DNA of 34,817 nt from Gemmatimonadaceae bacterium. GTDB taxonomy: Bacteria > Gemmatimonadota > Gemmatimonadetes > Gemmatimonadales > Gemmatimonadaceae. Shown in pieces: positions 23,216 to 31,091 of this stretch. How positions within the stretch are numbered: position 1 is the first letter of the stretch; each line of letters starts with the position of its first letter. The notes beneath the pieces were generated by a model that saw only the letters and a program-made list of their open reading frames with translations, was not told the DNA's origin and ran no database searches. Both the position numbers and the translations under genes were made by a program. Location of the stretch: positions 1 through 34,817 of the forward strand of contig JANYHT010000068.1 of NCBI GenBank assembly GCA_025358925.1, in the 5' to 3' direction.

Positions 23216-23277
23216 CGGAGCGAGATTGAAGTTGATATGAAGGAATGTCACTGGATACGCACACTCAAGAGTCACTC

Positions 23278-24195
23278 ATGCGCGTTGTTCCGCAAGCCGC
23301 CGTGATAATCGCGACCGTGATATTCCGCGCGACCGTTCTACGCGCGCAGGTGCTGGCGCCGCAAAATCCGTCGCCGATGACCGAGCACACACGTGCACAC
23401 GGACGGATCACACCAACAGAACTCGCTGGCACAAAACGCACGTTTAATGGTCCACTCGACAAACCGGTCGAACTTTTTATAACGGCGAAGAGTCGCAGCA
23501 CACACGGCCTTAAACTTGTCGTGCATTTTCTCGGCGCACCATTCATTCCCGAATATGCGGTGTCACAGCTCGGCGCGGACTATGCCGTGGCTGTCGTGAA
23601 CATCGGCTCTGGCAGCGGCATCTATGATCGCACCTTTTCCGATCCATCGGCATTCGACTCCTTGCTCTCCAGCATTCAACGCGAAGCTGCCACTGCACTC
23701 AGCGTAACCGTGAGCTTTCGGAGCATCACGCTCTCCGGCTTTAGTGCGGGTCACGGCGCTATTCGTGCGATCCTGCGCGACTCCGTGCATTTCGCGCACG
23801 TCAATGCGGTGCTGCTCCTCGATGGGATGCACACGAGCTACGTGCCAGAAGGAACGGTGATTGAAAAAGGTGGCACGCTTGACACGTACAATCTTGACGC
23901 GTTTGTACGCTTCGGCCGCGCCGCAATGCGCGGTGAGAAGCGCTTTGTTGTCACGCACTCGGAGATATTTCCAGGAACATTTGCGAGCACCACCGAGACA
24001 ACGGACTATCTCGCACTCACGCTCGGCGCCGTGCGAAGGCCGGTGTTGCGCTGGGGACCCGGCGGCATGCAGCAGCTGAGCGACGTGAGGCGCGGGCGCT
24101 TTGAAATTCTTGGCTTCGCCGGTAACACCGCACCGGATCACATTGATCAGTTTCAGGGCATGCCGACATTTCTCCGATTGTTGGAGCGACGCTAG
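23278..24195 (+). CDS. Secreted alpha/beta-hydrolase-like protein
   Basis: A 305-residue exported protein starting MRVVPQAAVIIATVIFRATVLRAQ, a plausible signal peptide; the frame begins 11 codons earlier (ATG 23245), which I reject because it would put polar residues before the signal. The nucleophile elbow is G154-F-S156-A-G158 in ITLSGFSAGHGAI. An oxyanion-loop-like LVVHFLGAP lies upstream, an acidic residue at D182 (VLLLDGMH), and a late DHIDQF supplies a candidate catalytic histidine. Together these fit the serine alpha/beta-hydrolase fold; the substrate is unknown. It is divergent from the frameshifted gene and overlaps the convergent regulator gene by 4 bp at its stop. Confidence 0.75.
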   Translation: MRVVPQAAVIIATVIFRATVLRAQVLAPQNPSPMTEHTRAHGRITPTELAGTKRTFNGPLDKPVELFITAKSRSTHGLKLVVHFLGAPFIPEYAVSQLGADYAVAVVNIGSGSGIYDRTFSDPSAFDSLLSSIQREAATALSVTVSFRSITLSGFSAGHGAIRAILRDSVHFAHVNAVLLLDGMHTSYVPEGTVIEKGGTLDTYNLDAFVRFGRAAMRGEKRFVVTHSEIFPGTFASTTETTDYLALTLGAVRRPVLRWGPGGMQQLSDVRRGRFEILGFAGNTAPDHIDQFQGMPTFLRLLERR

Positions 24196-24836
24196 GGCGT
24201 CGAAGGGCGCGCCGAAATCTTGAACGAGCATCGTGGGTGTCCATCGGTCCGGTCACACTGCTCGTGCACGTCAGCTCGTGTCGTCTCAGCGAGCAATTGC
24301 TCGACCGCACGACACGCCTCCGGACGCGCACGCACCGCGGTGGCCAGCGGACACCCATACCCCCGCATCACAAACGACTTCCCGTCGCGTTCGATATCCG
24401 CAACGGCGCCAAGCTCGCCAAGAAACGCCACGGCGGCGTTAACGCGCGCACCCAGCGTACTCGCGGAACTATCGGCCTTGGCACCGAGTCGTTTGCCGAC
24501 TTCGCGCATGAGCGCGTTGAGTTGCGCGTGCGTGTGCCGCTCACCAAGCACCTCCAGCAGCGTCGCAAGTGTCGGCGCATATGCGGACGAAAACGCAACT
24601 TCGGCGTCGTCCGCAACACCGTAAAACGTCGGCGGCTTGCCGACGAGTCCCTCGCGACGCGGACCTGCGTCAGTCACTACACCGTCACGTGCCAGCGATA
24701 AAAGCTGCGCGCGCACTGCATTGTCCGTGATCCCTAACTCGGCCGCCAAATCGTCGACGCTTCGATGTCCGCGTCTGAGAAGTGCCACGAGGCGCCCTCG
24801 CGTCGATTGCCCGAATTGCCGCTGCCACCATGCCAT
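24192..24836 (-). CDS. HTH transcriptional regulator with C-terminal four-cysteine motif (SufR-like)
   Basis: A 214-residue regulator. Residues about 10-60 form a winged helix (STRGRLVALLRRGHRSVDDLAAELGITDNAVRAQLLSLARDGVV), and the remainder is the sensor part. Near the C-terminus four cysteines lie at 162, 175, 194 and 203 (GCPLA, EACRA, HEQCDR, PRCSF): the first pair is spaced C-x12-C and the tail ends CSFKI, much like SufR-type regulators that bind an iron-sulfur cluster and repress Fe-S assembly genes. The later spacings differ from classic SufR, so the ligand is uncertain. I prefer ATG 24836 to a TTG at 24881. No suf genes are nearby. It is divergent from the DUF4142 gene, the natural first target to consider. 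Confidence 0.82.
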   Translation of the reverse strand: MAWWQRQFGQSTRGRLVALLRRGHRSVDDLAAELGITDNAVRAQLLSLARDGVVTDAGPRREGLVGKPPTFYGVADDAEVAFSSAYAPTLATLLEVLGERHTHAQLNALMREVGKRLGAKADSSASTLGARVNAAVAFLGELGAVADIERDGKSFVMRGYGCPLATAVRARPEACRAVEQLLAETTRADVHEQCDRTDGHPRCSFKISARPSTP

Positions 24837-25001
24837 TTTGGGCCCCGTGATGAGTTGCCAGTAACCTACGATGCATTCCAAAAAAATCCTAGTATATCAA
24901 AGTTTTATTTGCCTTATTAATACTCGCCCCCCATCTTTATCGTCACGCCGAGTACTCGGCTTGGATGTATTTCACCACACGCAGGCAAGGGAGAGCGATC
25001 G
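24837..25001. promoter_or_regulatory. AT-rich divergent promoter region
   Basis: The 165 bp between the SufR-like regulator and the DUF4142 gene contain a strikingly AT-rich stretch (24880-24925) in otherwise GC-rich sequence. On the minus strand TATACT (24891-24896) can serve as a -10 for the regulator; its -35 is weak. No classical SufR operator (CAAC-N6-GTTG) was seen. AAGGGAG at 24987-24993 is the ribosome binding site of the DUF4142 gene. Confidence 0.4.
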
Positions 25002-25556
25002 ATGCTGAGACGAAATGGAGTGTTGAACGGGACGGTTATGACCGGTCTCGTCGCGATAACAGCGGCTTTGATGGGCGCGACGAGCAGCGCGGTCGCCCAA
25101 GCCGCTGCGTTGGACGATCCAACAATTGTGGCAATTTTCGATGCCGCCAATACGTGGGACATTGCGACCGGCGCTCTCGCGAAGACCAAGGGCACCAGCA
25201 AGGAGATTCGGGAGTTCGGCGCGATGCTCGTGCGCGATCATACCATGGTGCGCAAACAGGGGCGCGACCTCGCGGCAAAATTGCACGTCACGCCAACACC
25301 GCCGAAGAACTTCGGCATGGCCAAGGATCACGACGTGGCAATGACGAAGCTCAAGGCGCTCAAGGGTGCAGCGTTTGATCGCGCATTCTTCGCCCATGAA
25401 GTGGCGTACCATAAGGCGGTGATCGACGCCGTCACCACGACACTGCTACCGGCGTTGCATAACCAAGAAGTCAAAGACCTTGTGACCAAAGTGGCGCCCG
25501 CATTTCAAGCGCACATGATCGCGGCGCAGACCATGCTCGACAAATTACCGAAATAG
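25002..25556 (+). CDS. Secreted DUF4142 (ferritin-like fold) protein
   Basis: A 184-residue protein with a long N-terminal signal sequence (MLRRNGVLNGTVMTGLVAITAALMGATSSAVAQA). The mature part is all-helical with the DUF4142 pattern: IVAIFDAANTWDIATGALAKTKGTSKEIREFGAMLVRDHTMVRKQG, followed by FDRAFFAHEVAYHKAVIDAV and a final helix QAHMIAAQTMLDKL. The family has a ferritin-like four-helix bundle with conserved His and Asp residues (here RDH and EVAYH) and is periplasmic in most bacteria; its role is not established. The Shine-Dalgarno AAGGGAG lies 8 nt before the start. The divergent cysteine-rich regulator suggests possible redox or metal control, which is inference. Confidence 0.9.
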   Translation: MLRRNGVLNGTVMTGLVAITAALMGATSSAVAQAAALDDPTIVAIFDAANTWDIATGALAKTKGTSKEIREFGAMLVRDHTMVRKQGRDLAAKLHVTPTPPKNFGMAKDHDVAMTKLKALKGAAFDRAFFAHEVAYHKAVIDAVTTTLLPALHNQEVKDLVTKVAPAFQAHMIAAQTMLDKLPK

Positions 25557-25575
25557 CGTACGGGTGTTGACGAGG

Positions 25576-25608
25576 CTCGGCGCGTGATCACTCTCATAGC
25601 GCGCCGAG
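25576..25608 (+). terminator. GC-rich hairpin after the DUF4142 gene
   Basis: CTCGGCGCG pairs with CGCGCCGAG across a 15-nt loop, starting 19 nt after the DUF4142 stop. No T-run follows, so it is terminator-like rather than canonical. Confidence 0.4.
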
Positions 25609-25638
25609 TCGCCTGTTAAAGACTCTCTAGCGCTGCCT

Positions 25639-25890
25639 ACCATCTCAGCGAGCAAGTTCAAGGCAACACGCTTGGTGCTCATGGATGACTTTGCAGGGCG
25701 ATATCGTATCCCCGGACTTTGATGCATGGGAGATGTCTGACTCTGACCCGCTCGGTGGTGTGAAGTGGTAATCATTAAAGCGAAACGACAAACACGACCG
25801 ATCGTTACTGGCAAACGTCGTGTGGCCGAATTGAGTCCTCCTTGTCTTGCGACACCGATGCTGTGGCGCGCGTCACTGTCGCTCGATCGT
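25639..25890 (+). pseudogene. Decayed Phd/YefM-type antitoxin in permuted pieces
   Basis: Three pieces of a Phd/YefM antitoxin can be read, out of their normal order. The N-terminal piece (25639-25695) reads TISASKFKATRLVLMDDFA, like the usual start of these antitoxins. Directly after it, in the next frame (25697-25771), comes the typical C-terminal, toxin-binding part GDIVSPDFDAWEMSDSDPL, ending in TAA. The piece expected between them, EVVIIKAKRQTRPIV followed by VAELSPP, appears only afterwards (25762-25890), in the first frame, and runs into the toxin. So the middle has been lost from the first copy or moved. A rearranged single copy, or two tandem copies each with a deletion, would both explain it. 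It cannot encode a working antitoxin. Confidence 0.6.
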
Positions 25891-25899
25891 ACGGCTGCC

Positions 25900-26307
25900 C
25901 TGCTGCTGGATACACACACGTGGATATGGACGCTTAACGACGCCCGTGATCGAATGTCTGAAGGCGCATGAACGCTTATTGAATCTGCCGCGCAAGCGCG
26001 ACGACTGTTTGTGAGTGATATCTCGTTTTGGGAAGTGTCGCTCAAGTCCATGAAATCGCAGGTGCCATTGCCCATGCATCCAACTATCTGGCTCGGGCTT
26101 GCCGCCCGCGCTCCGAGGATTCAGGGCTTAGCGCTCAGCCGCGACGTGCCAGTTCAAAGCACTGTGCGAAGTGGCAATCTTCGCGGAGATCCTGCCGACC
26201 GCATCCTAATCGCGCAAACGCAGCTCGCGAACATGTCGTTAATAACGTGTGACAGTCGAATCATTTCGTACGCCAAGCGACAGCCCGGCGTACCCGTGTG
26301 TGACGCA
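25900..26307 (+). pseudogene. PIN-domain (VapC-type) toxin pseudogene with in-frame TGA
   Basis: The frame reads LLLDTHTWIWTLNDARDRMSEGA, then TGA (25969-25971), then continues in the same frame with TLIESAAQARRLFVSDISFWEVSLKSM, ALSRDVPVQSTVRS, GDPADRILIAQTQLANMSLITCDSRIISYA. These are the PIN ribonuclease landmarks: the first Asp in LDTH, the Glu in FWEV, GDPADR and the final Asp in TCDSR. Apart from the TGA the catalytic residues remain. No start codon stands before LLLD, and no stop follows the family's usual end before the convergent SEC-C gene. Intact members are RNases held in check by a Phd-type antitoxin, whose remnant precedes it. Confidence 0.75.
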
Positions 26308-26324
26308 CACACCACGCATCACCA

Positions 26325-28358
26325 CTACCGGTGCGCTTTACGACGCTCCTGCCGGATGACCGCCAGTGGCGACTTTCCATATTGCACGTGCTTGGTCGTT
26401 TCCCACACGCGTTGCTGCGTGGCGCAGTATGCACGCACCGAGGCCGGATCAGTAATTCCCAGAGCGATTTGCGATTCGCGCCAGTTCAGCGTGAGCCACT
26501 GGAGCTCGTCGTTTAACATCCCTTCGCGCTCGCCCTCATACTCGCCTTCAGCGGGCTGTTCTGGCATTAATGCGTCGGGCAGCATGACGCGATGATACAC
26601 GTCATACGAAAACTGCTCGGTCCACCAACGTGTGCTCTGATCAGCTGACACGGCAATTGGAGCAGTCTCGAACCGCGTTTGCATCGCAGCGTGATCCGCG
26701 AGCATCGACGGCGCCCACGCGCAAACAATGCCATCGCGCTCGATCCATGTGAAAAACAACTGCAGGTTGGTGAGGATAACGAGCACATCGCGCATCGTGT
26801 ATGGCGTACCCATGAGCAGCCACGAATACAGATAGCAGCGCAAGTGATACTCGTGCATCGCCGCAACGGTGACGCCGTGGGCGAAGGCGAGATATTCAAC
26901 AAAGTGCGTGGCGTGTAGCTGCTGCTTCGCGATTGTTTCCTGCGCGCGTGCACGCCGTCGACCAACGTCGCGCGACTCTAGCCATCCCACAAAACCATCT
27001 ACGCGCGCCATCTCGGGCTCGAAACGCACTTCAATTTCTGTCTCGGTGCCGTCATACCGCGCAAAAGTTTTTGTCGGATCGGCCGCAACGCCGTCGGCAA
27101 ATCCGCGAGTGAGCGTCAGTGGTACGATCCACGGCGATAGTACAATGGGCGAACGGTTGCCCCGATACGCGAGCTGTAGTCCCGACGCGACGTCGCGCCA
27201 AATAACGGGTTCCGCACGCGGCGTTTTCTCGACCGGCAGCACGTGAGGTGCCCCCATCAATCGCGCAATGGCATCAAGCGTTCGCGTCAGCAACGCGACC
27301 TGCGCGCGTGAAATTCCACCCGCTGGCGTGTTGGCTGCGCTCAGTGACGGATGCGCGCCCGGTCCGGCCACATGAAAGTGCTGTGCTTTAAACTCTTGTT
27401 GCATCGCGCGCGGTAATGCCGCGCGCGGATCGAAATACAGTGTGAGCACCGCTCCATCGATGCCTCGCAGTGTGTCGCGTGGGTCATCGATTTTAAATAC
27501 TCGTTCAAAATCGACATCGTATTCATACAAACTGAGTCCGTACTGTTCGCCACCGGCACCCATCACGCAAACGGTCCATATGACATCTGGCGCCTCATCG
27601 GCCGTGATGGCAAGCGTTTCTTCGTTATCGAGTCGCGCCCACGGTTGCGCTTCGTAAAAGCGCGCCGCTGCGGCAAACAGTTGTGTGCGCGCATCCGCGT
27701 CGATACCCCACGCGCTCCACACGTGCGGAAAACTCAACAACGTGATGCCCGGTCGACCACTTGAAGGCGCTGCTGCCCCGTCCGGATCGTCACCAATTCC
27801 CCATTCGGGTCCGACGAGATTCTCGCGCATGTCGCGAGCAGCGTGGTCGAGCTGTGGCAGCAGTGATGCGTGTTCCACGCGCGTCGTTGCGCCGAGCATC
27901 GTGGCCATATGTTCGGCGACGATTGCGTGACGTACGCGCACCGTCGCGGGCATCGCGAGTGCTACGCCGCTTTCGGCGCGATGACGTTCGACGACTGCGC
28001 GTAGCCACTGTGTCAATGTCGATGCGACGTCGACCGGCTCCGTTGGCGGCGATTGCGTGATATGCGCATCGAGCACATATCCGTCGGCCACCACGAGCAA
28101 GACGCAGGTGCGCCCACTTGACTCTCCTTCAATGGCGAGCGGCACGGGCACGGCATCGAGCTCCCACACCGAACTTTCGTCCAGCGAACGGAGAACCTCA
28201 GCCGATAGCGACACGCCAGCACGGTCTGATTTTGCACGCTCGGTCTCCGACTGCACGAGGCGGAGTGACCGCTCGCGCACCATGTCAGCGTCGAGATGAC
28301 AAAGCTTGTACTTCTTGCCGGAACCACACGGGCAGGGATCGTTGCGATTGGCTGACAT
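26325..28358 (-). CDS. SEC-C motif zinc-binding protein of unknown function (677 aa)
   Basis: From ATG 28358 the protein begins MSANRNDPCPCGSGKKYKLCH; C9, C11, C20 and H21 form the SEC-C zinc motif known from the SecA tail, where it contacts SecB and ribosomes, and found fused to many unrelated proteins. The remaining 650 residues match no family I recognise. They are acidic-to-neutral, contain tryptophan-rich segments (SFPHVWSAWGI, SPWIVPLTL, LQLFFTWIERDG) and an alpha-helical C-terminal third, and have no signal peptide or membrane helix. A GTG at 28373 is an alternative start. The start is 17 bp from the divergent DDAH gene. A cytoplasmic role in protein handling can only be guessed from the zinc motif. 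Confidence 0.85.
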   Translation of the reverse strand: MSANRNDPCPCGSGKKYKLCHLDADMVRERSLRLVQSETERAKSDRAGVSLSAEVLRSLDESSVWELDAVPVPLAIEGESSGRTCVLLVVADGYVLDAHITQSPPTEPVDVASTLTQWLRAVVERHRAESGVALAMPATVRVRHAIVAEHMATMLGATTRVEHASLLPQLDHAARDMRENLVGPEWGIGDDPDGAAAPSSGRPGITLLSFPHVWSAWGIDADARTQLFAAAARFYEAQPWARLDNEETLAITADEAPDVIWTVCVMGAGGEQYGLSLYEYDVDFERVFKIDDPRDTLRGIDGAVLTLYFDPRAALPRAMQQEFKAQHFHVAGPGAHPSLSAANTPAGGISRAQVALLTRTLDAIARLMGAPHVLPVEKTPRAEPVIWRDVASGLQLAYRGNRSPIVLSPWIVPLTLTRGFADGVAADPTKTFARYDGTETEIEVRFEPEMARVDGFVGWLESRDVGRRRARAQETIAKQQLHATHFVEYLAFAHGVTVAAMHEYHLRCYLYSWLLMGTPYTMRDVLVILTNLQLFFTWIERDGIVCAWAPSMLADHAAMQTRFETAPIAVSADQSTRWWTEQFSYDVYHRVMLPDALMPEQPAEGEYEGEREGMLNDELQWLTLNWRESQIALGITDPASVRAYCATQQRVWETTKHVQYGKSPLAVIRQERRKAHR

Positions 28359-28375
28359 ATTCAGCAATTTCACCG

Positions 28376-30349: not shown

Positions 30350-30370
30350 GCGTGCAAATGTGTCATCGCG

Positions 30371-30802
30371 TCATGCTATCATCGCTTTCCACTCGGACGG
30401 CATGCGCACCGTGACGGCTGCGTCGCCACGCTCTCGCACCTCTCGGTCCAGCGTAAGCAGCACGCTGTTTGCTTTTACCGCCGTCGCGACGTACACCGCG
30501 TCAGCGCCCCGCAGTGCATAAGTTGCGGCAATTTCCGAAGCGGCGGCGGCGAGTCGATGATCCAGCTCGTACATCATGAGGTACGGCGAGGCCAGGGCGA
30601 CCCGACCCGCTTGGAGTGCGAGCGCCTTATCTCGTGTACGGCGCGCAATGGTCGCACACACCTCAACGACAAACAGTCCTGGCTGGTGCAGCGGAATACG
30701 CTGCGTCACCAACGATTGAATCAGCGTCGCACATCGCTTGTGCTCTTGCTCAATCGACGACAAGGCGGACAGCCATACCGAGGCGTCGAGCGTGACCCTC
30801 AC
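30371..30802 (-). CDS. vapC: VapC-family PIN-domain ribonuclease toxin
   Basis: A 143-residue PIN protein. The four acidic residues of the metal site are visible: D6 (VTLDASVWLSAL), E47 (FVVEVCATIAR), D101 (LRGADAVYVATA) and D119 (LLTLDREV). VapC toxins cleave RNA, often tRNA or rRNA, and are neutralised by the VapB partner. The start is a GTG whose last bases overlap the stop of the upstream antitoxin gene (GTGA), the usual coupled arrangement. No lesions are visible, so the pair looks functional. The RNA target cannot be predicted. Confidence 0.88.
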   Translation of the reverse strand: MRVTLDASVWLSALSSIEQEHKRCATLIQSLVTQRIPLHQPGLFVVEVCATIARRTRDKALALQAGRVALASPYLMMYELDHRLAAAASEIAATYALRGADAVYVATAVKANSVLLTLDREVRERGDAAVTVRMPSEWKAMIA

Positions 30803-31050
30803 CGTCGATCGTGGTGCAACTGTTCAACCAGCGATCCATCCTGCGTGGTCGCGCCAGACACGGCCTCGCCGAGCGCCCCCCAGGACCGCAACCACTTGGC
30901 CTGGGGTTTCGCTTCGCTGACGTGCGCGCGTTCATCCACCCACGCCGTGAAGAGCGCGGTTGCCACCTCACGCACGGCACGACCTTCGAGCGCGCTCTTC
31001 GATTTGATACGCCTGTAGAGGTCGTCCGGAAGATCGATGCTGGTTTTCAT
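30799..31050 (-). CDS. vapB: VapB-like ribbon-helix-helix antitoxin
   Basis: An 83-residue protein. Its N-terminal half is a ribbon-helix-helix DNA-binding domain: MKTSIDLPDDLYRRIKSKSALEGRAVREVATALFTAWV, with a basic-hydrophobic beta strand (KTSIDL) followed by two helices. The C-terminal half (about residues 45-83, including KWLRSWGALGEAV and DGSLVEQLHHDRR) is the flexible part that would wrap the toxin. It overlaps vapC by 4 bp. RHH antitoxins bind their own promoter; an inverted repeat lies 14 bp before the start codon. Confidence 0.87.
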   Translation of the reverse strand: MKTSIDLPDDLYRRIKSKSALEGRAVREVATALFTAWVDERAHVSEAKPQAKWLRSWGALGEAVSGATTQDGSLVEQLHHDRR

Positions 31051-31063
31051 GCTAAGAGTATTG

Positions 31064-31075
31064 CGGTATTTACCG
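31064..31075 (-). promoter_or_regulatory. Candidate VapB operator
   Basis: CGGTA-AA-TACCG (minus strand) is a perfect 5-bp inverted repeat 14 to 25 bp before the vapB ATG, in the 41-bp gap after the propeller gene. Its place next to AT-rich sequence fits an autoregulatory RHH site. Confidence 0.4.
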
Positions 31076-31091
31076 TAAAACGCAAGAAGGC

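Follow-up and report, generated by a model that had tools for sequence, protein, structure and literature searches.

A decayed chromosomal Phd/YefM-VapC toxin-antitoxin operon: probable loss by deletion and point changes, with no segment moved

Results

The relic locus and its genomic setting

The window (the whole 34,817-nucleotide stretch analysed here, from a 4.0-Mb host genome in 72 contigs) holds, between a DUF4142 gene and a SEC-C/DUF7309 gene, about 700 bases whose translation yields pieces of an antitoxin and of a toxin (Table 1). The antitoxin lies directly 5' of the toxin on the same strand, and the GTG at 25765 overlaps the antitoxin's TAA, as in an operon. In type II pairs of these families, the small antitoxin binds the operator through its N-terminal part, while its C-terminal part binds and blocks the toxin, a PIN-domain RNase. 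A sequence-only reading had proposed that this locus is a decayed Phd-VapC pair scrambled by rearrangement; profile matches, an antitoxin deletion and an in-frame TGA in the toxin bear out the decay, while the scrambling does not stand up to comparison with relatives (below).

Table 1. Features of the relic locus and its surroundings (window positions)
Feature	Positions	Strand	Basis or remark
DUF4142 gene	25002-25556	+	Upstream neighbour of relic
Antisense ORF over most of relic, 176 aa	25545-26075	-	ORF list
Putative antitoxin (Phd/YefM-like) N-terminal remnant	25639-25698	+	Profile of 11 intact relatives; codon listing
Deletion junction	25690-25696	+	7 nt versus 41 codons in 11 of 11 relatives
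Putative antitoxin C-terminal remnant	25694-25771	+	Next frame, ends at TAA 25769-25771; profile match
Putative toxin N-terminal part (family N-terminal extension and PIN start)	25765-25968	+	Toxin profile; relatives
In-frame TGA	25969-25971	+	Inside PIN-domain frame
Toxin (VapC/PIN) C-terminal part	25972-26310	+	Toxin profile, Pfam PIN; terminal stop lost
SEC-C/DUF7309 gene	26325-28373	-	Downstream neighbour of relic
Second toxin-antitoxin pair, open	30371-31050	-	PIN toxin clear

Toxin-antitoxin pairs are accessory and often decay, and sequence comparison within the genus indicates that this Phd-VapC cassette is accessory as well. One genome of the genus (G018) carries an orthologue of the SEC-C gene at 79% identity on an 8260-base contig that aligns to both flanks of the relic locus, with 193 bases in place of the window's 2124 (24203-26326). 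The stretch missing from this syntenic contig is thus a 2.1-kb accessory segment comprising a winged-helix gene, the DUF4142 gene and the relic. Whether the cassette was gained here or lost in G018 is a choice on which this single comparison may be read either way. Four flanking proteins of the window (encoded at 23245-24195, 24192-24881, 25002-25556 and 26325-28373) were not found around 11 intact relatives of the locus, within the up to 1.5 kb covered on each side, so the cassette appears to sit elsewhere in those genomes.

Intact relatives

The toxin half downstream of the TGA, used as query, finds matches (E up to 0.001) in 20 of the 30 genomes searched within the genus, own genome included, and 11 loci outside the window reach E 4.2e-21 or lower. 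Of 395 genomes drawn from the phylum, 23 have a match at E up to 1e-15, again including the own genome. No stop interrupts the matched stretch in any listed row of either search, the query starting after the window's TGA, which the own row therefore cannot show. Over the toxin half, identity to even the nearest relatives is just 57-60%, and part of the length of the relic's branch may therefore reflect ordinary divergence. Nineteen relatives (L008-L018 and L087-L094) were read around the toxin. In all 19, the antitoxin runs from N-terminal part through middle to C-terminal part in one frame, and behind it, on the same strand, comes a toxin frame that stays open across an N-terminal extension and on into the PIN domain. 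In 11 of them, the toxin start codon was set at the candidate closest to the antitoxin stop, at a distance of -3 to +9 nt.

Profiles were built from the antitoxins and toxins of 11 intact relatives, and each piece of the relic was compared with 500 shuffles, the counts below covering only those shuffles that HMMER scored. Two of the 11 antitoxins, L009 and L014, were tested against known families: both match phd_fam (Phd/YefM, TIGR01552) above its cut-off of 20.8 bits (29.4 and 31.1 bits, respectively), while L014 passes the cut-off of 29.8 for PF02604 (32.7 bits) and L009 falls under it (26.3 bits). Plasmid relatives of the L009 toxin are annotated as VapC family toxins, some of them beside Phd/YefM antitoxins. 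Plasmids searched at the DNA level gave no match, nor did solved structures queried with the L009 toxin, nor PADLOC models compared with the L009 antitoxin, the L009 toxin and the C half of the window toxin. A scan of a species genome collection gave a single match, of 29 residues, on a Micromonospora contig.

The antitoxin remnant

Two pieces of the antitoxin can be recognized. The N piece (25639-25698) scores 18.1 bits on the relatives' antitoxin profile, a value reached by none of 377 scored shuffles, and the C piece (25694-25753), in another frame, scores 22.2 bits (0 of 450). Between two conserved points that are 41 codons apart in every one of the 11 relatives measured, the relic has 7 nt, which implies that about 116 nt of the antitoxin middle are gone and that the frame has shifted. 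No in-frame ATG, GTG or TTG occurs from the upstream in-frame stop at 25597 to the conserved core. What is left of the antitoxin is an N piece and a C piece, its middle being absent: compared with Phd/YefM antitoxins, it retains two pieces that match the relatives' profile but lacks a middle, a start codon and, owing to the frameshift at 25690-25696, a continuous frame.

The general databases do not recognize these fragments. Searched alone against Pfam and NCBIfam, the antitoxin pieces give no Phd/YefM match, and with E values up to 1 allowed, neither they nor 25765-25968 match any antitoxin or PIN model of Pfam; the sole Pfam line for the N piece is an irrelevant DUF220 (E 0.21). Assignment of all three is based on the relatives' profiles.

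The disputed third piece

Three antitoxin pieces had been described, in the order N-terminal, C-terminal, middle. The first two hold, but the supposed middle (25765-25887, 41 codons) scores -0.5 bits on the antitoxin profile, and 94 of 467 scored shuffles do as well or better. Against the toxin profile the same stretch scores 5.4 bits (2 of 384 scored shuffles as high), a match that is modest by itself. Extended from 25765 through to the TGA, it matches the toxin profile without a break at 39.9 bits (0 of 448), whereas the antitoxin profile gives it -1.0 bits (133 of 443 scored shuffles as good). Beginning at the GTG, it occupies the position and frame that N-terminal extensions have in intact toxins. 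On the strength of its position, its frame, the overlap with the antitoxin stop and the continuity with the PIN start, we assign 25765-25887 to the N-terminal part of the toxin rather than to the antitoxin middle.

The stretch IVTGKRRVAEL does resemble a generic Phd motif by eye, which could point to an antitoxin rearranged into the order N-C-middle, or to the remains of two antitoxin genes in tandem, both carrying deletions. We regard either history as very improbable. Besides its score at the level of shuffled sequence, the stretch aligns with the toxin extension directly ahead of the PIN start, and the start codons of intact operons likewise overlap or touch the antitoxin stop; both variants were rejected on the strength of the profiles and of the intact relatives. 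Once the third piece is recognized as toxin N-terminus, the locus, apart from the missing antitoxin middle, has the order and strand of an intact operon, so that an intact homologous locus with the same order exists and the proposed scrambling falls away.

The extension itself (L008-L018; window 25765-25890), which places about 25-50 residues ahead of the PIN domain and has a tryptophan that recurs shortly before that domain, sets these relatives of the relic apart from VapC. All eight listed plasmid matches to the L009 toxin begin at query residue 22 or later, and the L009 extension, tested alone, has no Pfam match.

The toxin remnant and its lesions

The C-terminal part of the toxin scores 141.5 bits on the relatives' toxin profile. 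Alone, this half reaches 24.4 bits on Pfam PIN (cut-off 23.6), and the whole locus with the stop read through passes that cut-off as well, with 35.4 bits (PF01850, the PIN-domain model for VapC family toxins). Five acidic residues are kept in the translation (D 25909, E 26032, D 26188, D 26197 and D 26251), which we take to be the residues generally regarded as catalytic in PIN domains; the description of a toxin with an in-frame TGA and retained catalytic residues is therefore correct. Compared with VapC, however, the relic toxin has an internal TGA and no terminal stop, and its frame is not open. It extends to 26593-26595, into the antisense of the next gene, and so 94 residues beyond the conserved C-terminus, after which a stop follows within a few codons in 10 of 11 relatives, the eleventh being truncated at its contig end.

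Point changes are also apparent. Four near-identical sequences were dropped, and the toxin columns from the PIN start onward that are invariant in the remaining 15 open relatives were counted: the relic is changed at 6 of 34, while each of the 15, tested against the others, departs at 0-3 of 34-36. An earlier count with six closer relatives had put the relic at 14 of 64, five relatives at 0-4 of 64-67 and L018, the most divergent of the open relatives in that set, at 22 of 81. Several of the relic's departures vanished once L087 was added; because the open L018 departed as often and L087 shares some of the relic's states, the larger count replaced the earlier one. Synonymous divergence from the relatives is saturated, which makes dN/dS uninformative, and it was dropped as a decay test. 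We consider the evidence for point decay of the toxin good but not overwhelming.

Retention of the catalytic acids, and a PIN frame open on either side of the TGA, might suggest that the codon is recoded or read through and that the toxin is still made. TGA, however, closes 7 of the 19 listed ORFs of the window and is thus a working stop here; its alignment column is variable among relatives, and the toxin has also lost the stop at its end and has changes at conserved residues. With the antitoxin destroyed, moreover, any toxin still produced should do harm. Recoding was rejected on the variable column, the use of TGA in the window and the other toxin lesions, and we give it almost no credence.

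Discussion

Taken together, these comparisons make it very likely that a chromosomal Phd/YefM-VapC type II toxin-antitoxin operon has turned into a pseudogene through deletion and point changes, with no segment moved. One internal deletion with a frameshift has removed the antitoxin middle, and a start codon is missing as well; on the toxin side there are an in-frame TGA, the loss of the terminal stop and changes at conserved residues. Since an active toxin left without its antitoxin would be selected against, inactivation of the toxin probably came before, or together with, the loss of the antitoxin. Decay had been ascribed to rearrangement rather than slow drift, a contrast we do not uphold: comparison with the relatives shows that no segment was moved, and point decay is evident in the six changed invariant residues, the startless antitoxin and the lost toxin stop.

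The lesions are known from the assembly alone, in 72 contigs, and the single-base ones could be assembly errors. That such errors have merely disfigured a working pair seems highly unlikely, because at least four independent lesions of different kinds (a missing start, a deletion of about 116 nt, an internal TGA and a lost terminal stop) occur at the locus as a whole, besides the changed toxin residues. There is hardly any likelihood, in our estimation, that the remnant makes something useful, for example a re-initiated C-terminal PIN fragment or an antisense-frame product (25545-26075) that would interfere with other PIN toxins of the genome. The antisense ORF has no Pfam match, and a stop-free run as long arises in 10 of 1000 mononucleotide shuffles; as shuffles reach its length and the 11 relatives have antisense runs of 112-259 codons, we do not treat it as a gene.

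The relic is an ordinary member of known families and, taken by itself, of little importance. It does offer a caution: a short motif resemblance can suggest rearrangement where intact operons show just a deletion.

The window also contains, as had been noted, a second pair, consisting of an open PIN gene and a small upstream ORF. For the 83-aa partner, neither Pfam nor NCBIfam gives a match above cut-off (ParD, E 0.064). G018 lacks this pair at the syntenic position, with 24 bases in place of the window's 723 (30369-31091). Across the genome there are seven Phd/YefM matches and 19 PIN matches, 17 of them stop-free and two, the relic included, with one TGA. The other (L083, G000:C53:149689-150030) has its single TGA in frame and a small open ORF upstream that presumably encodes an AbrB-type antitoxin.
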